NCBI RefSeq assembly: GCF_021631985.1
Contig: NZ_CP070225.1
Location: 4,588,001-4,652,000 of the forward strand
Direction of reading: 5' to 3'
Source: Sandaracinus amylolyticus
GTDB taxonomy: Bacteria > Myxococcota_A > Polyangia > Polyangiales > Sandaracinaceae
Length of the DNA: 64,000 nucleotides
The notes under the pieces are model-generated. The model worked only from the letters and a program-made list of their open reading frames with translations, made no database searches and was not told where the DNA came from. The position numbers and the translations under genes were made by a program. Shown piece by piece: positions 13,508 to 23,810 of this stretch. The stretch's first letter is position 1. Each line of letters opens with the position of its first letter.

Positions 13508-14230
13508 TCACTCGGTGACCGAGATCCCCCAGAACGTGCCGGCGCCGGTGCCGAGCCATCCGACGAGCTGCGCCGCGAGCACCCACGCGCAGAGCGCGAA
13601 GGTCGCGGCGACGAGCATCGCGGAGCGGCGCCCGCGCTCGCTGCGCACGAGCCCGAGCGCCTCGAGCGCAGCGGGGATCGCCACGACGAGGTGCAGCGAG
13701 ATCGCGGTGAGACCGACCGCGTGCAGAACGAGCACCTCGGGACGACCGAGCGCGTGCGTGAGCGTGACCCACTGCGCGACGAGATCGGCGCCCGCGAGCT
13801 TCGGCGCCCACATCGTCGCGACGTGGATCGCGAGGAACACGATCGACGCGATCGACACGACGGGCGCGAGGCGCCCCAGCGCGCGCACGATGCCCGCGTC
13901 GTCCTCGCGCGCCGCGCCGGACAGCGCGTCGCGTCGCACCAACGCGCGCACCGTGAGCACGGCCCACGCGCTCAGCGCGCCGATCACGACGAGCTCGATC
14001 GCGATCGCGAGCGGTCCGCGCGACGTGGACTGCATCCGCGCGATCCACGCGTCGCGCCCGCCGAACACGCTCCACTGCTCTCCGAGGTGGAAGGCGAGCC
14101 AGAGCGCGAGCGGCAGCGCCGCGAGCACTGCCTGGACGGCCGGAGCGTGGAGGCGCGGAGACGGACGCACGAAGGCCGCGCCGAGCATAGAGCTGGGCGC
14201 GGCCTCCGGTCGAGTTCGCGGTGTGGTCAC
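13508..14230 (-). CDS. Five-helix membrane protein, succinate dehydrogenase cytochrome b-like
   Basis: A 240-residue protein with five hydrophobic segments and conserved histidines: HLGEQWSVFGG after helix 1, IHVATMWAP in helix 3 and LHAVGLTAISLHLVV in helix 4. This layout resembles the b558-type SdhC haem-binding subunit of succinate dehydrogenase/fumarate reductase, but no flavoprotein or iron-sulfur subunit gene is nearby, so the role is open. The GTG at 14230 overlaps the stop of the Dps gene (GTGA). An ATG at 14188 is an alternative start, 14 codons downstream. It is probably cotranscribed with dps. Confidence 0.55.
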   Translation of the reverse strand: MTTPRTRPEAAPSSMLGAAFVRPSPRLHAPAVQAVLAALPLALWLAFHLGEQWSVFGGRDAWIARMQSTSRGPLAIAIELVVIGALSAWAVLTVRALVRRDALSGAAREDDAGIVRALGRLAPVVSIASIVFLAIHVATMWAPKLAGADLVAQWVTLTHALGRPEVLVLHAVGLTAISLHLVVAIPAALEALGLVRSERGRRSAMLVAATFALCAWVLAAQLVGWLGTGAGTFWGISVTE

Positions 14231-14718
14231 TCGTCGAGCGTCGCGCGGAGCATCCACGCGGTCTTCTCGTGCTCGTCGGCGCGCGCGATCAACATGTCAT
14301 GGGTCACGCCATCGCCCGCGTCGTCGGCGATCTGCGCGGCACGACGCGCGTCGCGCGCGAGGTGCTCGTGGCCGCGCAGCAGGATCTCCACCATCCCGCG
14401 CGCGCCGGGCGCGCCGTGATCGAGCGGGATGCGCGCGATGCTCGCGATCTGTCCGAGCGAGGTCGGCGCCAGCGCGCCCAGCGCGCGCACGCGCTCCGCG
14501 AGCACGTCGACCGCCTCGGCGAGCTGGTCGTACTGCTCCTCGAACATCTTGTGCAGCGAGTGGAAGTGCGGGCCGCGCACGTTCCAGTGGAACGACTGCG
14601 TCTGGAAGTAGAGCACGTAGGTGTCGGCCATCACGTGCGTCACGATCTCGCTGATCTCGCGGCGTCCGGTCTCCGCCGTGGCACGGCGGCCGTCGTCGAT
14701 TCCGATTCGGGGCTCCAT
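14227..14718 (-). CDS. dps: Dps/ferritin-like DNA-protection protein
   Basis: A 163-residue four-helix Dps. The ferroxidase residues characteristic of the inter-subunit site are visible in TQSFHWNVRGPHFHSLHKMFEEQYDQL (written in two parts: the His of SFHWNV and the Asp/Glu of MFEEQYD). The BC helix and C-terminal helices follow (GHEHLARDARRAAQIADDAG, DEHEKTAWMLRATL). Dps oligomers store iron, use hydrogen peroxide as oxidant and shield DNA. The N-terminus is short, with two arginine pairs that could contact DNA. The ATG at 14718 has GGAGGA upstream. Its neighbours (AhpD-like, AhpC) are also peroxide-related. Confidence 0.92.
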   Translation of the reverse strand: MEPRIGIDDGRRATAETGRREISEIVTHVMADTYVLYFQTQSFHWNVRGPHFHSLHKMFEEQYDQLAEAVDVLAERVRALGALAPTSLGQIASIARIPLDHGAPGARGMVEILLRGHEHLARDARRAAQIADDAGDGVTHDMLIARADEHEKTAWMLRATLDE

Positions 14719-14828
14719 GTTCGTCCTCCCTGTGCCGCGTGCGCGGCGTGTCTGGTGGCTCGCCGACCCGGTGCTGCTGAGGCGGTCGTTCTCGAGCGTG
14801 AGCTCGGCGGAAGGTACTTCGACCCGGA

Positions 14829-14848
14829 CCCCCTCGTCGTCGAGGGGG
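14829..14848. other. Perfect hairpin between ahpD-like gene and dps
   Basis: CCCCCTCG pairs with CGAGGGGG around TCGT. It sits in the 181-bp gap between the stop of the AhpD-like gene (14900) and the dps start (14718). There is no T tract; it may be a processing or attenuation hairpin. Confidence 0.4.
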
Positions 14849-14899
14849 CACCGGACGAAATGTTCGTCGCTCCGCGGGCTCATCGCCGCGGAGGGTCGA

Positions 14900-15463
14900 T
14901 CACGTCGAGAGCGCGACCGCGACGCCGTGGACCGTCGCGGCGATGCGCACGGCATCGTGGATCGCAGCCTCGGTCACACCGCCCTTGTTCAGCACCTCCT
15001 CGTGCGAGCGGATGCACGTCTCGCAGTTGCCGATCGCCGAGACCGCGAGGCAGAAGAGCTCGAAGTCGAGCTTCGGCCCCTTGGTGCGCGCGATGCGCTG
15101 CATGCGCAGGCGCGCCGGCATCTGCGAGTACGACTCCTTCGCGACGAGGTGTCGGAAGCGGTAGTAGACGTTGTTCATGCCCATCAGCGCCGCGGCGGCG
15201 CGCGCATCGTCGATCGCGGGATCGAGGAGCGCGGGCTCCACCTGGGCGCGGGCGGTGGTGATCAGCGCGCGCACGAGATCGCTGTCGCGCGATGCATGGG
15301 CGCACGCGATGGCGACGCCGTAGCGCTGCACCGGCGTGAGCGCGCCGTCACCGAGCACGCTCTGCAGGTTCAGGCGCAGATCCGAGGCGGCCTCGGGGAG
15401 CGCGTCACGGATGCGCTCGACGTCGACCGTCGCGCTCTCGGTCGCGGGCGAGAGCGGGCTCAC
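14900..15463 (-). CDS. ahpD: Carboxymuconolactone decarboxylase/AhpD-family alkylhydroperoxidase
   Basis: A 187-residue AhpD-like protein. The thiol active site is visible as GNCETCIRSHEEVL: a C-x2-C pair followed by the catalytic His, with the conserved upstream Glu in KLDFELFCLAV. In its family AhpD reduces the partner peroxiredoxin AhpC through a lipoyl adaptor. The GTG start at 15463 overlaps the ahpC stop (GTGA) and has AAGGAGG upstream, so the two are translated as a coupled pair. Both are probably driven by the sigma-54-type promoter upstream of ahpC. Confidence 0.88.
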   Translation of the reverse strand: MSPLSPATESATVDVERIRDALPEAASDLRLNLQSVLGDGALTPVQRYGVAIACAHASRDSDLVRALITTARAQVEPALLDPAIDDARAAAALMGMNNVYYRFRHLVAKESYSQMPARLRMQRIARTKGPKLDFELFCLAVSAIGNCETCIRSHEEVLNKGGVTEAAIHDAVRIAATVHGVAVALST

Positions 15464-16011
15464 GCGGCCTCCTTCTTCGGCGTGAGGGTCGCTTCGCCCT
15501 TCTTCCAGTTGCACGGGCAGAGCTCGTCGGTCTGCAGCGCGTCGAGCACGCGCAGCACCTCGTCGACGCTGCGGCCGACCGAGAGATCGTTCACCGAGGC
15601 CCAGCGGATGATGCCGTCGGGATCGACGATGAAGGTCGCACGGAGCGGCACGCCGTCCTGCTTGTGCAGGATGCCGAGCGCCTGGCTCAGCTCGCGCTTG
15701 GTGTCGGCGAGCATCGGGAAGGGCAGCGCGCGCAGATCGGGGTGCTGCTTGCGCCACGCGAGGTGGACGTAGTGGGTGTCGGTGCTGGCACCGAGCACGA
15801 CCGCATCGCGATCGGTGAAGTCGCGGTGGCGGCGACCGAACTCGGCGATCTCGGTCGGGCAGATGAACGTGAAGTCCATCGGCCAGAAGAAGAGCACCTG
15901 CCAGCGTCCGGCGTGGCTGCGATCGCCGAGGGTCTCGAACTCGCGGCCCTCGTCGAGCGAGACGACGGACTGGAGCGAGAAGGCGGGAAGCTTGTCTCCG
16001 ACGGTCAACAT
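15460..16011 (-). CDS. ahpC: Peroxiredoxin (AhpC type)
   Basis: A 183-residue typical 2-Cys peroxiredoxin that reduces hydrogen peroxide and alkyl hydroperoxides. The peroxidatic cysteine lies in FFWPMDFTFICPTEIAEF, the supporting Arg is in GVPLRATFIVDPDGIIRW, and the resolving-cysteine region is TDELCPCNWKKGE. The start ATG at 16011 (MLTVGDKLPAF) is chosen over one 12 codons upstream because AGGAG precedes it at 9 bp. It is the first gene of a pair with ahpD and is divergent from a sigma-54 activator at 16140. Confidence 0.93.
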   Translation of the reverse strand: MLTVGDKLPAFSLQSVVSLDEGREFETLGDRSHAGRWQVLFFWPMDFTFICPTEIAEFGRRHRDFTDRDAVVLGASTDTHYVHLAWRKQHPDLRALPFPMLADTKRELSQALGILHKQDGVPLRATFIVDPDGIIRWASVNDLSVGRSVDEVLRVLDALQTDELCPCNWKKGEATLTPKKEAA

Positions 16012-16046
16012 TCCGGGTTTCTCCTGGTGTGGATGGCCAGGGCTCA

Positions 16047-16063
16047 TTGCGCGGAGCGTGCCA
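16047..16063 (-). promoter_or_regulatory. Sigma-54 (RpoN) promoter in front of ahpC
   Basis: Read on the minus strand: TGGCACG, 4 bp, GCGCA. The -24 box is perfect and the -12 box keeps the critical GC and A but has GC where the consensus has TT. It lies 36-52 bp before the ahpC start codon, so the leader would be about 25 nt and include the AGGAG site. A sigma-54 activator gene sits divergently behind it. Confidence 0.6.
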
Positions 16064-16099
16064 GCCGAAAACCCTGTGGATTCAACGAATCACACCGAC

Positions 16100-16121
16100 G
16101 ATCACCGACCTGACGGTGATC
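16100..16121. promoter_or_regulatory. Inverted repeat, candidate activator-binding site
   Basis: GATCACCG and CGGTGATC form 8-bp arms around a 6-bp spacer. The centre is about 73 bp upstream of the predicted ahpC transcription start and 30 bp from the start of the divergent sigma-54 activator gene. Further CACCGA words at 16093 and 16127 flank it. The position fits an enhancer element that could also feed back on the activator gene. Confidence 0.5.
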
Positions 16122-16139
16122 TCGACCACCGACTAATGG

Positions 16140-17741
16140 GTGACGGATGCGCCATCGACATTTCGGTGGAGCGGTGCCACAACTCTCGACGTGCCCGACT
16201 CCACGCTCGATCTCACCCGCGATCTCGCCGACCTCGCGACCCTCGCCACGAGCGACGAAGCGGACCTCGACGACATGCTTCGTCGCGGGCTCGACTGGCT
16301 CGCGAAGCTCGCGCCCTACGACCTCGCGTGCGTGTTCCAGCTCGAGGGCGATCAGCTCGTGGTGCGCGCGATGCGCGGCCCGCTGGCGCGCGCCGAGGTG
16401 CGCTCGCATCGCCTCGACCTCGACGCGTTCCCGACGATCCGCGAGGCGCTGGAGACGCGACGTGCCCGCGCGTACACCGAGGACGATCACGCGCACGGCG
16501 ACGGCGATCCCTTCGACGGAGTGATCGATCTGCCCGCGGGCCACGCGTGCATGGTCGTGCCGCTCGCCGCGGGCGAGCGCGCGTTCGGCGTGCTCTCGCT
16601 CGATCGCCGCGAGTGCGTGACGTATCCGCAGGCCGTCGTCGATCTCGTCGAGATCTACGGGCGCATCCTGGCCCTCGCGATCCGCAGCGCGGAGCAGAGC
16701 GCGTCGCTCGCGCGGCTCGGCGCGCAGAGCCGCGAGCACGCGCGCCTGCTCGAGGAGCGCATCGAGGGCGGCGAGGAGGGCGGCGTGCTCGAGACGAGCG
16801 CGAGCCCGGCGGTGCGCGAGCTCGCGCGCAAGGCGCGGCAGGTCGCGGCGACGACGACGCCGGTGCTGATCCTCGGCGAGACCGGCACCGGCAAGGAGCG
16901 GCTCGCGCACGCGATCCATCGATGGAGCGCGCGGCGCGATCGGCCCTTCGTCGTGGTGAACTGCGCGGCGATCCCCGAGGGCCTGCTGGAGAGCGAGCTC
17001 TTCGGGCACGACCGCGGCGCGTTCACCGGCGCGACGCGGGAGCGCAGCGGACGCTTCCGCACGGCGAACGGCGGGACGCTGTTCCTCGACGAGATCGGCG
17101 AGCTGCCGCTCGAGCTGCAGGCGAAGCTGCTGCGCGTGCTGCAGACCGGCGAGCTGCAGTCGGTGGGCAGCGATCGGACGATCAAGGTCGACGTGCGCAT
17201 CGTCGCGGCGACGCACGTGGACCTCGCGCGCGCGGTGGAGGAAGGACGCTTCCGCGAGGACCTCTACTACCGGCTCGACGTGTTCCCGCTGCGTCTTCCC
17301 GCGCTGCGCGAGCGGCTCGAGGATCTGCCCGCGCTGTGCGAGCACCTGCTCGCAGACCAGCGCGCGCGCACGGGACGTCGCGGCGTGCACGCGACGCGCG
17401 AGGCCATCGAGGCGCTCGCGCGACATCGCTGGCCGGGCAACATCCGCGAGCTCGCGAACGTGCTCGAGCGCGCGGCGATCCTCAGCGCGAGCGGGGCGCT
17501 CGGTCCGGTCGATCTCGGGATGAGCGAGCGCGCGCCGGTGAGCACGAAGAAGGCGCGCGGCGGCGACGGAGAGCTGGTGTCGCTCGCGGAGAACGAGCGA
17601 CGGCACATCGCGGCGGTGCTGCGCGCGACCGAGGGGCGCATCTACGGCGAGCGTGGCGCGGCGAAGATCCTCGGCGTGCCTCCGAGCACGCTGCAGTCGC
17701 GCATGAAGAAGCTCGGACTGGACCCGGCGGGCGCGCGGTAG
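16140..17741 (+). CDS. Sigma-54-dependent transcriptional activator with GAF domain (NorR/FhlA-like)
   Basis: A 533-residue enhancer-binding protein. Residues about 30-185 are a GAF-like sensor domain ([41 protein letters not shown]). The AAA+ domain follows at about 215-440, with Walker A GETGTGKE, the sigma-54 contact loop GAFTGA, Walker [13 protein letters not shown] and the arginine finger region. A FIS-type helix-turn-helix closes the protein ([20 protein letters not shown]). There is no receiver domain, so the signal is probably a small molecule or redox change sensed by GAF. The GTG start at 16140 lies 128 bp from ahpC, divergently, and the gene is the likely activator of ahpC-ahpD. 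Confidence 0.93.
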
Positions 17742-20089: not shown

Positions 20090-20539
20090 TCAGAGCGCGT
20101 GCAGCACGTGGTTCGCGGGGATCTCGAGCTGGGTCACCGGCTCGAGCTCACCGATGCCCGTCTGCTCGTCGACGTCGGCGCGCAGCACCTCGAGCACCTC
20201 GCCGTTGCGACGCACCACCACGATCGCGCCCTGCCCCGCCCACCAGCACCGCGCACGCAGCAGCGCGCCCTCGCTCGCCTCGTCGTTGAAGCACGCGCCG
20301 ACCTCGGTGCCGATCGCGACCGTCTGGATCGGCTCGTCCTCGCAGATCAGCACGAGGCCGATCGCGGTGCGCGGCATCTCCTCGTCGCTCGTCTGCGCGA
20401 CCTCGGGCTCCGCGAAGCGCAACGCGGCGGTGCACTCGCGCCGCGGCGCGTCCTCGGGTGTCGTGGTGCCGACGTTCGTCGCGCCGCCGCACGCGGCCAG
20501 GAGCGCGGCCACCGCGATCATCCACGCCCGCACGATCAC
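20090..20539 (-). CDS. Small lipoprotein, unknown
   Basis: A 149-residue exported protein. The signal peptide ends in a lipobox (AVAALLAACGG), so the mature protein is lipid-anchored. The body is strand-rich with three or more cysteines (RRECTAAL, LICEDEP, ACFNDEA, RCWWAGQG) that may form disulfides. The GTG at 20539 overlaps the stop of the NtrC-type regulator gene (GTGA), so it is cotranslated with the kinase/regulator pair and could be a sensed or controlled envelope component. No family recognised. Confidence 0.7.
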   Translation of the reverse strand: MIVRAWMIAVAALLAACGGATNVGTTTPEDAPRRECTAALRFAEPEVAQTSDEEMPRTAIGLVLICEDEPIQTVAIGTEVGACFNDEASEGALLRARCWWAGQGAIVVVRRNGEVLEVLRADVDEQTGIGELEPVTQLEIPANHVLHAL

Positions 20540-21942
20540 TCGTCTCCCGCCGCGATGCCGTAGCTGCGCAGCTTCCGCTGCAGCGTGCGGCGATCGATCC
20601 CGAGGCTCGTCGCGGCCTTCGTGATGTTGCCGCCCATGCGCGCGAGCGTCCGCTCGATGTGCGTGCGCTCGAGCTCGGCGAGGCTCATCTCCTCGTCGCT
20701 CGACGCCGGCGCGCTCGGCGCGACCACGCGCACGGCGGGAGTCGATGCGCGGGTCGTCGTCGCGCTCGGATGCGCGAACACGCTCGCCGCGATCATCCGG
20801 CGGACCAGCTCGCCGTCGAGCACCTCGCCGGTCGCGAAGAGCGACGCGCGGCGCAGCACGTTGAGCAGCTCGCGCACGTTGCCCGGCCACTCGTAGCTGG
20901 TGAGCGCCTTGATCGCGTCGGCCGCGAGCTGCCGCGGCGCGCCGCCGATGCGCTCGAGCAGGTGCACCGCGAGCTCGGGCACGTCCTCGACGCGCTCGCG
21001 CAGCGGAGGAAGGCGGAGCGGGAACACCTGCAGGCGGAAGTAGAGATCCTCGCGGAAGCGGCCCGCCTGGACCTCGCTCCACAGATCGCGATTCGTCGCC
21101 GCGACGATGCGCACATCGACCGGGATCTCGCGTGCCTCGCCGATGCCGCGCACCTTCCGCTCCTCGAGCGCGCGCAAGAGCTTCGCCTGCGACTCGAGCG
21201 GGAGCTCGCCGAGCTCGTCGATGAAGAGCGTGCCGCCGTTCGCCTCGCGGAAGAGCCCGAGGCGATCGCCCGTCGCGCCGGTGAACGCGCCCTTCTTGTG
21301 GCCGAAGAGCTCGCTCTCGAAGAGATCGCGCGGGACGCACGCCGCGTTGAGCGCGACGAAGCGCCCGTTCTTGCGGGGCGAGCGCAGGTGCAGGTGGCGC
21401 GCGACGACCTCCTTGCCGGTGCCGGTCTCGCCGTAGAGCGCGACGGTCTCGTCGGTCGGTCCGACCCGCGCGACGAACGAGCGCACCTCCTCCATCGCCG
21501 CGCTGGTCCCGACGAGCGGCGGCGCGAAGTCGCTCGCCGCGCTGCCCGCATCGACCGCGCCACGGCCACGGCGCGCCTCGGCGATCGCCTGATCGAGCAG
21601 CGGCTGCAGGATGTCGGCGTCGACGGGCTTCTCGAGGAACGAGAACGCGCCGAGCTTCATCGCCTGCACGGCCGCGTCGACCGAGCCGTGCCCGGTGAGC
21701 ACGACGAACTTCGTGGGCACGCGCGAGCAGCGGCGCAGCACCTCGAGCCCGTCGAGATCGTCCATCCGCAGATCGAGCAGCGCCGCATCGGGCGGATCGC
21801 CTGCCTCCAGCTTGCGCACGCCCTCGTGCCCACCGGCTGCTTCGTCGACGCGATAGCCGAGGCGACCGAGCGCCTTGCGCATCGCGAAGCGGAACGCTGC
21901 GTCGTCGTCGACGACCAGCACGCGACCGTCGCTGGTGCTCAC
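20536..21942 (-). CDS. NtrC-family sigma-54 response regulator
   Basis: A 468-residue regulator in three parts. The receiver domain (about 1-125) has the acidic pocket in VLVVDDDAAF, the phospho-acceptor Asp in ALLDLRMDDL, Thr in VVLTGHGSV and Lys in FLEKPVDA. The AAA+ domain (about 145-375) has [14 protein letters not shown] and GGTLFIDELGEL. The FIS-type helix-turn-helix is at the C-terminus (ITKAATSLGIDRRTLQRKL). It drives sigma-54 promoters when phosphorylated. The GTG start overlaps the stop of the histidine kinase gene (GTGA), so that kinase is its partner. Confidence 0.95.
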   Translation of the reverse strand: MSTSDGRVLVVDDDAAFRFAMRKALGRLGYRVDEAAGGHEGVRKLEAGDPPDAALLDLRMDDLDGLEVLRRCSRVPTKFVVLTGHGSVDAAVQAMKLGAFSFLEKPVDADILQPLLDQAIAEARRGRGAVDAGSAASDFAPPLVGTSAAMEEVRSFVARVGPTDETVALYGETGTGKEVVARHLHLRSPRKNGRFVALNAACVPRDLFESELFGHKKGAFTGATGDRLGLFREANGGTLFIDELGELPLESQAKLLRALEERKVRGIGEAREIPVDVRIVAATNRDLWSEVQAGRFREDLYFRLQVFPLRLPPLRERVEDVPELAVHLLERIGGAPRQLAADAIKALTSYEWPGNVRELLNVLRRASLFATGEVLDGELVRRMIAASVFAHPSATTTRASTPAVRVVAPSAPASSDEEMSLAELERTHIERTLARMGGNITKAATSLGIDRRTLQRKLRSYGIAAGDE

Positions 21943-23810
21943 GCCGGGACCTCCCGGGCGAGGCCCTCGCGCGGTGCGCTGCTCGCCGTGCGGATCGCGC
22001 CTGCGCGCGCGGCGGGCAGCACCACGCGCGCCCGCGTGCCTCCACCCTCGCGCGGCACCAGCTCGATGGTTCCCTGCATGGCGCGAACGAGCATGTACGA
22101 GGTGTAGAGCCCGAGTCCCGTGCCCTGTCCAGGCGGCTTCGTCGTCGCGAACGGCTCGAACAGACGCTGCCGGAATTCTTCGGAGATCCCCGGCCCGTCG
22201 TCGTCGATGACGAGCTCCACGCGACCCTCTGCCTCGTCGTAGCGCGCCGAGACGTAGACGCGCCCGTCGTCCTGCTCGCGCACCGCGTCGTACGCGTTCT
22301 GCAGCAGGTTCACGATGACCTGCACCAGTCGATCACGATCCGCGACCACACCGAGCTGATCGACGCCCTCGCCGATCTCGACCGGAGGCGCGCGACGCAT
22401 GCCCGCGAACACCAGCGCGCGGGCGCGCTCGACGACCGCGGCGAGCGGGACCTCGCCCTGCATCTCGGCGCGCACCACGTCGCCGCCGGTCAGGAGGCCC
22501 TGCGTGATGCGGCCGAGGCGGCGCGTCTCGTCCTGCACGATCGCCGCGCTCTCCGCGGCATCCGCGATCAAGCGCGAGCGCGTGTCGGCCGCGCTCTCGT
22601 GCTCGAGGTCGCGCAGCACCTTCTGCATGTCGGCGGCGAGCGTGCGGATCGTCGCGAGCGGCGTGTTGAGCTCGTGCGCGACGCCGGTGGTCACGCGACC
22701 GAGGCTCGCGAGACGCTCCGCGAGGATGAGGCCGCGCTCGTCGATCACGCTGCTGGTGCGGTCGAGGTAGAGGTTCATCGCGCGGCGCGGACCACCCTTG
22801 CGCGCGCCCGCCGTCGCGAGCGGGAACACGAGCATCTCGTACACGCGCTCGATGCCCTCGACCGTCGCGGCGAAGCGACAACGCCCGGGCTCCGACGCCG
22901 CGAGCGCGCGCCGCACCGGACACTCGCCCTCGACCTTGCCCTGACAGGGACGATGCTCGCCGGGACAGCTCCAGATCCCCCCGGCCTGCGCGTACGGCGA
23001 GAGCTCCGCCGCGCGCTTGTTGCGCCAGATCACCGTGCCGTCGCCGTCGACGACCTCGAGGCCTGCGTCGAGCTCGCTGAGCGTGTTCGAGAGCACCTCG
23101 TACTCGAGCGCCACCGCATCGCCGATGCGCGCCAGTGCGAGCTCGCGCTCGCGCAGCTCGCGCACCGCGTGCGACACGATGTACGCGACGGCGCCGAGCA
23201 CACCACCGAACGCGACGAGCTCGCTGATCAGATCCCACGGCGCGACGGGATCCCACGTCGCGATGCGCAGCGCCGAGACGTGCTCCGTCGCCCAGAGCGC
23301 CGCGCTCGCGAGGAGCGCGACGCCGGCCGCGATGAACGTCGCGCGCGCCCCGCCGAGGATGCCCACGACCGCGACGTGGAAGATGTAGTTCGCGATGAAC
23401 GGCGTGTGGACGCCGCCCGAGGCCCACAGGACCGCGGTGAGGATCGCCATGTCGACGATGGCGTGCACGATGCCCGCGCGCGGATGGTGGGTGCGGCGGA
23501 TCGCGAGGATCGTGTTGTACCCGGCCGCGACGATCGCGATGCACGCGAGCATCGGCGCGTGGAGCCCCGGGAAGAGCCCGGCCCACGAGAAGATCGCGCC
23601 GAGCGCGATGAACGTGATCGCGCCCCACCGCAGCCGGATGAGCCAGCGCACGCGCGAGTCGCGGAAGTCGTCGGGCTCGGTGGCGAAGGCACCACTGTCG
23701 GCAGCGCCCTCGGCCCCGTGGAGGAGGGCATGCCACTGCGACGCGGACGACATCGCCGGGATCTCGGGCCGTTCGGCGGAGCCGAAAAGAGGGTTCGGCG
23801 AGGACGGCAT
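21939..23810 (-). CDS. Membrane histidine kinase with cysteine-containing PAS-like domain
   Basis: A 623-residue sensor kinase. Residues about 55-230 contain five or six membrane helices. A PAS-like domain follows (about 235-345, EYEVLSNTLSELDAGLEVVD) and carries an unusual cysteine series: CPGEHRPCQGKVEGEC and one more Cys 14 residues later. The transmitter has the H box GVAHELNTPLATIRT and an ATPase domain with NLLQNAYDAV, DDDGPGIS and GTGLGLY. It phosphorylates the coupled NtrC-type regulator. The start at 23810 has GGAAGAGAG upstream but leaves only 14 bp to the divergent ClC gene; an ATG at 23753 is an alternative. Confidence 0.93.
   Translation of the reverse strand: MPSSPNPLFGSAERPEIPAMSSASQWHALLHGAEGAADSGAFATEPDDFRDSRVRWLIRLRWGAITFIALGAIFSWAGLFPGLHAPMLACIAIVAAGYNTILAIRRTHHPRAGIVHAIVDMAILTAVLWASGGVHTPFIANYIFHVAVVGILGGARATFIAAGVALLASAALWATEHVSALRIATWDPVAPWDLISELVAFGGVLGAVAYIVSHAVRELRERELALARIGDAVALEYEVLSNTLSELDAGLEVVDGDGTVIWRNKRAAELSPYAQAGGIWSCPGEHRPCQGKVEGECPVRRALAASEPGRCRFAATVEGIERVYEMLVFPLATAGARKGGPRRAMNLYLDRTSSVIDERGLILAERLASLGRVTTGVAHELNTPLATIRTLAADMQKVLRDLEHESAADTRSRLIADAAESAAIVQDETRRLGRITQGLLTGGDVVRAEMQGEVPLAAVVERARALVFAGMRRAPPVEIGEGVDQLGVVADRDRLVQVIVNLLQNAYDAVREQDDGRVYVSARYDEAEGRVELVIDDDGPGISEEFRQRLFEPFATTKPPGQGTGLGLYTSYMLVRAMQGTIELVPREGGGTRARVVLPAARAGAIRTASSAPREGLAREVPA

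Follow-up and report, generated by a model that had tools for sequence, protein, structure and literature searches.

The window, a stretch of 64,000 nucleotides from the soil bacterium Sandaracinus amylolyticus, contains a peroxiredoxin operon and, divergently oriented to it, the gene of an activator that carries a sigma-54 interaction domain. The genes and protein domains of the locus are listed below by their positions in the window.

14227..14718, minus strand: dps, ferritin-like Dps protein (PF00210, 1.5e-27 on the longer frame 14230-14955)
14900..15463, minus strand: ahpD, AhpD-type alkylhydroperoxidase (PF02627), its start overlapping the end of ahpC
15460..16011, minus strand: ahpC, peroxiredoxin of the AhpC/TSA family (PF00578, 1.4e-35), start at ATG 16011, not 16047
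16191..17741, plus strand: activator gene, GAF - AAA+ (sigma-54 interaction) - Fis-type HTH (PF13492/PF13185, PF00158, PF25601, PF02954)
16257..16685, plus strand: GAF domain of the activator (PF13492/PF13185)
16800..17291, plus strand: AAA+ domain of the activator (PF00158, 3.4e-72), with GETGTGKE (Walker A) and GAFTGA (sigma-54 contact loop)
17583..17714, plus strand: Fis-type helix-turn-helix of the activator (PF02954, 2.3e-6)

The start codon ATG 16011 of ahpC is preceded by AGGAG at 16025-16021. The ahpC product belongs to the wider PF00578 family and did not pass the AhpC equivalog model TIGR03137 (148 bits, cut-off 272). The ahpD product passes the core domain model TIGR00778 (42.5 bits, cut-off 27.8) and lies below the longer model TIGR00777 (165.9 bits, cut-off 192). 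The dps gene is located 181 bp downstream of ahpD on the same strand and is probably co-transcribed with ahpC-ahpD. For the activator, the start GTG 16191 is more likely than GTG 16140 because the similarity within the family begins at about residue 21-24 and because the third of the operators described below would otherwise lie inside the gene. The window genome (G000) has 10.96 Mb on two contigs, a single copy of rpoN (PF04552 match, 1.6e-65) and 87 PF00158 activator-domain matches; it belongs to the same family as G185 and to the same order as G164, and G155 is a congener. Another sigma-54 system is encoded nearby, as a pair of an NtrC-type response regulator and a histidine kinase is located at 20536-23810 on the minus strand of the window.

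Predicted promoter and operators between ahpC and the activator gene

The following regulatory elements are predicted in the region between the two divergent genes.

16048..16063, minus strand: -24/-12 (sigma-54) promoter element of ahpC, TGGCACG-CTCC-GCGCA (sequence match; conserved among related upstream regions)
16100-16121: inverted repeat GATCACCG-N6-CGGTGATC, 22 bp, exact, centre about 73 bp before the predicted +1
16103..16118, no strand: operator 1, CACCGACCTGACGGTG, 0 mismatches to CACCG-N6-CGGTG; core of the inverted repeat 16100-16121
16127..16142, no strand: operator 2, CACCGACTAATGGGTG, 1 mismatch to CACCG-N6-CGGTG
16153..16168, no strand: operator 3, CATCGACATTTCGGTG (reverse complement CACCGAAATGTCGATG), 1 mismatch; counterpart of the activator-proximal operator in relatives

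The original prediction had described a promoter-like sequence TGGCACG-N4-GCGCA facing ahpC, and this element was indeed located at 16063-16048 on the minus strand, with the imperfect -12 box (GC in place of TT) that had been pointed out. When the GC is set at -13/-12, the predicted +1 falls on the previously proposed position 16037, which is 26 nt ahead of the preferred start codon of ahpC. By itself, the match is not significant: with up to one mismatch, TGGCACG-N6-GCA has four matches in the window against 7.8 expected, and the one at ahpC alone is exact. The inverted repeat has one exact copy in the window; with up to three mismatches there are 13 matches against 1.0 expected, meaning that near-palindromes of this kind are common in the window. 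Since the statistics of the single sequence are weak, the promoter and the repeat gain their weight from conservation among relatives.

Relatives of the activator were collected in two ways. A search of 192 genomes of the class yielded 27 loci (L002-L028) with a full-length match of at least 46% identity. Moreover, a GAF alignment was used to scan named genome contigs and yielded 130 relatives; the best 80 were retained, and some of these overlap the genomes of the first search. For the promoter and operator counts, 53 ahpC upstream regions were compiled, consisting of L002, L003 and 51 regions from the best 80 of the 130 relatives. The set leaves out L058 (ahpC 872 bp away, behind dps), L114 (ahpC on the same strand), L117 and L128-L131 (a different peroxiredoxin) and the loci without ahpC.

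A -24/-12 site of the form GG-N10-GC, with GG and GC fixed and at least 9 of 12 consensus letters required, is present on the ahpC strand in 45 of the 53 regions, whereas the opposite strand has such sites in two of the 53 and shuffled sequences gave a mean of 2.5 and a maximum of 7. After similar upstream regions had been merged to 19 clusters, the promoter was found in 11.5 clusters versus 1.0. In Myxococcus and Corallococcus, the promoter reads TGGCACGG-N3-CTGCT or similar. No site scoring at least 9 was found in eight regions (L053, L054, L055, L060, L068, L076, L084 and L098), and the best score at L076 and L098 was 8. It might be argued that ahpC has an ordinary promoter and that the -24/-12 match arose by chance in G+C-rich DNA, as the single match is not significant and its -12 box is imperfect. 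However, this explanation is most improbable in view of the strand-specific conservation, and a simple scan of 15900-16300 for promoters of the sigma-70 type, the type that it covered, found none.

The inverted repeat was confirmed as exact and as centred about 73 bp upstream of the predicted +1, but the view of a single repeat has to be revised because it is one of three predicted operators, centred at about -73, -97 and -123. As judged by comparison with the relatives, the repeat is one copy of a conserved operator, CACCG-N6-CGGTG. With up to one mismatch, at least one copy is present in 50 of the 53 ahpC upstream regions (shuffles: mean 1.24, maximum 5) and at least two copies in 32 (shuffles: 0.01, maximum 1). 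The Fis-type helix-turn-helix of the activator would bind these operators. When up to one mismatch was allowed, the best copy of the operator, CACCGAAATGCCAGTG, had a single match in each of 13 of 17 genomes, always in the gap between activator and scavenger gene; a reversed-pattern control had one match over all genomes. Two search patterns were rejected for the window genome. The relaxed core CACCG-N6-CGGTG has 220 occurrences there and is useless alone for a genome-wide search, and CACCGAAATGCCAGTG, with up to one mismatch, has no match in G000, G155, G185 and G187, where the sites are variants.

Scavenger genes near the activator family and probable targets in trans

In the 192 genomes of the class, ahpC is divergent from and adjacent to the activator gene at 15 of the 27 loci, all 15 being among the 17 closest relatives (L002-L018). 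Among the best 80 of the 130 contig relatives, 69 have a divergent scavenger gene within 1.5 kb. The first divergent gene encodes AhpC (51 loci), rubrerythrin (6), cytochrome c peroxidase (4), another peroxiredoxin (3), Dps (2), KatG (2) or superoxide dismutase (SOD; 1). A scavenger gene lies within 3 kb of the AAA+ domain at 72 of these 80 loci versus none of 36 control activators, which were high-scoring PF00158 matches from G000, G187 and G125 with 4 kb flanks rather than randomly chosen activators. For rubrerythrin, SOD and one peroxiredoxin, the queries were drawn from neighbours of the family, so that these classes are post hoc; the same queries were applied to the controls. Pfam searches of representatives identified rubrerythrin, Fe/Mn-SOD, catalase, CCP_MauG, peroxidase (KatG), redoxin and AhpC-TSA domains. 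Some loci deviate from this pattern: no scavenger gene is near in the sequence at hand at L075, L082, L093, L100, L118 and L132, and at L101 and L123 the sequence starts at the end of a contig, so that both were counted as lacking a divergent scavenger gene. At L114, ahpC-ahpD is located upstream on the same strand, at L115 a peroxidase gene is located downstream, and at L129 the scavenger genes are farther off.

The promoter and the operator are also present where ahpC is not the first divergent gene. All 18 divergent scavenger genes of this kind are preceded by a -24/-12 site scoring at least 9 (other strand, 2; shuffles, mean 1.07 and maximum 4). The operator precedes katG (L063, L107), cytochrome c peroxidase genes (L092, L094, L102, L109), dps-ahpC (L058) and rubrerythrin genes in metagenome-assembled genomes (MAGs) of Planctomycetota (L119, L120, L122); among the 18 loci, it is absent at L081, L104, L117, L126-L128, L130 and L131. 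Judging from these comparisons, the operator and the promoter track the activator and not ahpC. At the sequence level, the system is conserved across Myxococcota and is also seen in MAGs of other phyla, with the phyla read from record titles and tree labels, mostly of MAGs, in which single cases may be binning errors.

Other genes recur at these loci as well. An Fe-S protein that has a CCG domain and a motif resembling CHGCRMCFKFCDSFP, possibly an electron donor, is encoded beside the activator at L119, L120, L122, L126, L081, L151 and L155, often together with rubrerythrin. At L143 and L147, a gene for a pyridine nucleotide-disulphide oxidoreductase is divergent from the activator gene; it is possible that the enzyme is a thiol-reducing partner. 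The activator of L067, a record titled Comamonas sp. KCTC 72670, groups in the protein tree with that of Myxococcus xanthus, which probably reflects a mislabelled or mixed assembly, or else a recent transfer.

The more distant Group B activators (L019-L028 and L044; 46-54% identity) have other surroundings. Their neighbours include genes for Prx5 (L036, L040), KatG (L042, L043) and catalase (L044), and no clear scavenger gene was recognised by eye at L034, L035, L037, L038, L039 and L041. The operator, with up to one mismatch, was not found in the activator-scavenger gaps of Group B (L019-L028, L044). In the case of L044 (G188:C53), the activator beside the catalase gene is a second, more distant member of the family; two members per genome are possible.

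A related operator pattern was searched genome-wide in nine genomes, and a subset of the matches was examined. In G164, katG is located far from the activator gene (L240/L244) and has three operator sites upstream, with TGGCACGTCCCCTGCT between the sites and the gene. Moreover, the gene of a di-haem cytochrome c peroxidase of G164 (L223) is preceded by two operator sites and the sigma-54 site CGGCACGGCTTTCGCT. Both suggest a regulon that the activator of G164 would control in trans. Tandem operators were found at three of 30 CCP_MauG (PF03150) loci from eight genomes, namely L250 (G155), L251 (G000) and L252 (G164). The locus of the window genome lies outside the window, in the region C1:5611646-5611821 (L251:2462-2637), and has the following features.

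C1:5611646: gene for the high-potential iron-sulphur protein (HiPIP; PF01355, 24.7 bits, cut-off 22), which is followed by the peroxidase gene
C1:5611708-5611723: -24/-12 site CGGCACGCGTGGTGCT of the HiPIP-peroxidase operon
C1:5611806-5611821 and C1:5611788-5611803: two exact operators upstream of the -24/-12 site

The same arrangement is found in G155. The HiPIP-cytochrome c peroxidase operon is probably a second target of the window activator, regulated in trans. Several other candidates were rejected. The katG gene of the window genome lacks both the operators and a good -24/-12 site, and operators were found at only one of six katG loci, that of G164. The operator matches at L224 and L233 have no scavenger gene nearby, and the operator-like sites on C78 of G164 lie within repeats and without scavenger genes.

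The distant targets also bear on the role of the operators at ahpC. Operator 3, the copy with the strongest conservation, is located less than 40 bp from the start of the activator gene, which would fit operators that mainly serve the autoregulation of the activator gene, with ahpC as a bystander. However, katG and peroxidase operons that lie a long way from an activator gene have the same operators upstream, and we consider this explanation very unlikely. Four observations support the claim that the divergent GAF activator places ahpC under sigma-54 control: the -24/-12 site conserved on the ahpC strand, the conserved operators upstream of it, the single rpoN gene and the GAFTGA loop of the activator. 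A motif of the GAFTGA type, variants included, is present in 76 of 82 relatives.

The GAF domain and its resemblance to NorR

According to the protein comparisons, the activator and its relatives form a distinct family with the GAF-AAA-Fis layout. In a protein tree calculated with a quick method, in which NorR forms a long branch, the branch that sets the family apart from NorR and 32 other activators has an SH-aLRT value of 100. One row labelled as a control, L156, had been retrieved with the GAF search and falls inside the family on a very long branch. The closest NCBIfam model is that of NorR, the NO-responsive activator of E. coli (NF003451), which the activator does not pass (398.4 bits, cut-off 476). 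By sequence, the nearest solved structure is 3o5y, the GAF domain of a sensor protein (E 3e-5).

The iron site of NorR includes D96 and D131. Further residues of this site are R75, D99, H111 and C113, of which R75 is the postulated ligand that is displaced by NO (accessible text of PMC2941729). The residues D123, D126, H135, C137 and D155 of the window activator (numbering from 16140) match D96, D99, H111, C113 and D131 of NorR. In an alignment of the 28 members from the whole-protein search, the equivalents of D96, H111, C113 and D131 are invariant and that of D99 is kept in 26; H117 and C159 are likewise invariant, and both are missing from NorR. In an alignment of 82 rows, the equivalents of D96, H111, C113 and D131 as well as H117 and C159 are each found in 82, and that of D99 in 74 (it is replaced in eight), with the limit that the 80 contig loci were fetched with patterns covering some iron-site residues, so that only D155 and C159 are independent there. 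The 28-row alignment was made without residue patterns and agrees with these counts. R75 of NorR is kept in none of the 82 rows, being replaced by T or S in 73 and by other residues in nine. We infer that the GAF domain contains a NorR-like iron site with other chemistry.

NorR shares with the activator family the GAF-AAA-Fis layout, a divergent target operon and a sigma-54 promoter; in contrast to NorR, the family has lost R75, has gained the invariant H117 and C159, and has peroxide scavengers as its predicted targets. Thus, the earlier comparison with NorR holds for the fold and most of the iron-site residues and fails for the NorR model and R75. The activator could nevertheless be a sensor of NO, or of peroxynitrite, that induces ahpCD as a defence against peroxynitrite. 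AhpC and AhpD together can indeed remove peroxynitrite as a peroxynitrite reductase, and both the closest model and the conserved iron-site residues are those of NorR. Against this explanation, the postulated NO-displaced ligand is replaced throughout, other members of the family neighbour the genes for KatG, catalase, rubrerythrin, SOD and cytochrome c peroxidase, and E. coli NorV, NorW and Hmp had no match in any family locus examined (tblastn, E 1e-6). An NO or peroxynitrite sensor is therefore unlikely. The original prediction had left open whether the GAF domain senses peroxide or NO; the scavenger neighbours and the lack of NorV, NorW and Hmp matches lean towards peroxide or oxidative stress and speak against NO.

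Alternation with OxyR and a model of peroxide control

OxyR and PerR are the regulators to which bacterial peroxide defence is usually ascribed, with OhrR acting on organic peroxides. At E 1e-35, OxyR was detected in 63 of the 192 genomes of the class, in a scan that scored the best 12 candidates per genome and all candidates in G000, G155 and G185. None of the 17 genomes with a close activator has OxyR at this threshold versus 63 of the 175 others (Fisher p 0.0009, treating genomes as unrelated; about 0.02 by genus), and OxyR is present in two of the ten genomes that have only the distant form of the activator (G010, G069). In the window genome, OxyR was not found among 74 scored candidates, of which the best reached 1.7e-21 (27% identity); the best matches in G155 and G185 were 1.1e-29 and 2.7e-21. 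The alternation is also visible within families: of five genomes of family f1, three have the activator and two OxyR, the numbers in f5 are four and two, and no genome has both.

OxyR adjoins orthologues of ahpC-ahpD at seven of the 16 OxyR loci that were inspected, and katG or catalase genes at some others. Thus, this LysR-type regulator occupies the same place beside orthologous genes in other genomes of the class, but it belongs to a different protein family from the GAF-AAA-Fis activator, and the operators of the activator family are found at none of the seven ahpC loci. A -24/-12 match of 9 is present at one of the seven, with the first T missing and at a distance of 194 bp. OxyR recognises a different DNA site and acts at a sigma-70-type promoter. 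Very probably, the activator fills the role that OxyR plays in neighbouring genera. As a further explanation, the activator may sense oxygen, iron or the general redox state, the scavengers being part of a shift to aerobic life. A GAF domain with an iron site could sense O2 or the iron supply, and the rubrerythrin and SOD neighbours would fit an oxygen response; however, the KatG, AhpC, catalase and peroxidase targets and the alternation with OxyR point to peroxide, and we regard this possibility as rather unlikely.

Sigma-54 control of peroxiredoxins has precedents in other contexts. The prxS-rpoN2 genes of Mesorhizobium loti and Rhizobium etli include a peroxiredoxin gene under a sigma-54 promoter, ATGGCACGGCGCTTGCG; prxS is activated by NifA as part of nitrogen fixation and not by a dedicated stress activator encoded next to it (accessible text of PMC3538637). 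Moreover, in alpha-, beta- and gamma-proteobacteria the predicted sigma-54 targets are reported to be enriched in the peroxiredoxin group COG0450 (excerpts of PMC12316311). The same paper reports that M. xanthus does not survive deletion of rpoN. The RNA repair activator RtcR of E. coli is a sigma-54 activator as well, and its target is induced on deletion of ahpC (excerpts of PMC9650030); RtcR differs from the window activator in its CARF sensor and its RNA-repair targets and has no control of scavengers. A dedicated peroxide activator is not described in the accessible portions of PMC12316311 or PMC3538637, and no description of the activator family was found in a search that covered mainly the open-access literature.

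The conservation of the promoter, the operators, the gene neighbourhoods and the GAF residues is established at the level of sequence. In our judgement, these features are with high probability best explained by a sigma-54 promoter with its own enhancer and a divergently encoded, peroxide-responsive GAF-AAA-Fis activator of ahpC-ahpD. This one-component activator would bind the three 16-bp operators upstream of the ahpC start. In unstressed cells, the GAF domain would keep the AAA+ ring switched off, and the sigma-54 polymerase would remain in a closed, silent complex at TGGCACG-N4-GCGCA. The signal perceived by the GAF domain would be peroxide or one of its immediate effects; the most likely sensing site is a mononuclear iron held by D123, D126, H135, C137 and D155, in which C159 or H117 may take part. 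Once the repression is lifted, ATP hydrolysis would open the promoter, so that AhpC and AhpD, and probably Dps too, would be made. The activator may also regulate its own gene. Sigma-54 promoters need ATP-driven opening, and expression of the defence genes would therefore be very low in the off-state and rise steeply once switched on.

A sigma-54 activator thus appears to hold the place of OxyR or PerR in peroxide defence. With somewhat less confidence, we favour the view that the whole family may act as a master regulator of the peroxide response, both in some Myxococcota and in lineages that belong to other phyla. The regulator would be a NorR-type iron GAF protein without the labile arginine and with an extra cysteine and histidine, and it would stand in for OxyR with a lineage-dependent regulon of ahpCD, katG, HiPIP-cytochrome c peroxidase, rubrerythrin, SOD or Dps. 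If so, a function could be given to one of the numerous activators found in myxobacteria, including the member of Myxococcus xanthus AM003 (L062). Moreover, NorR and the activator family would form a natural series for studying how the iron site of a GAF domain chooses between NO and peroxide.
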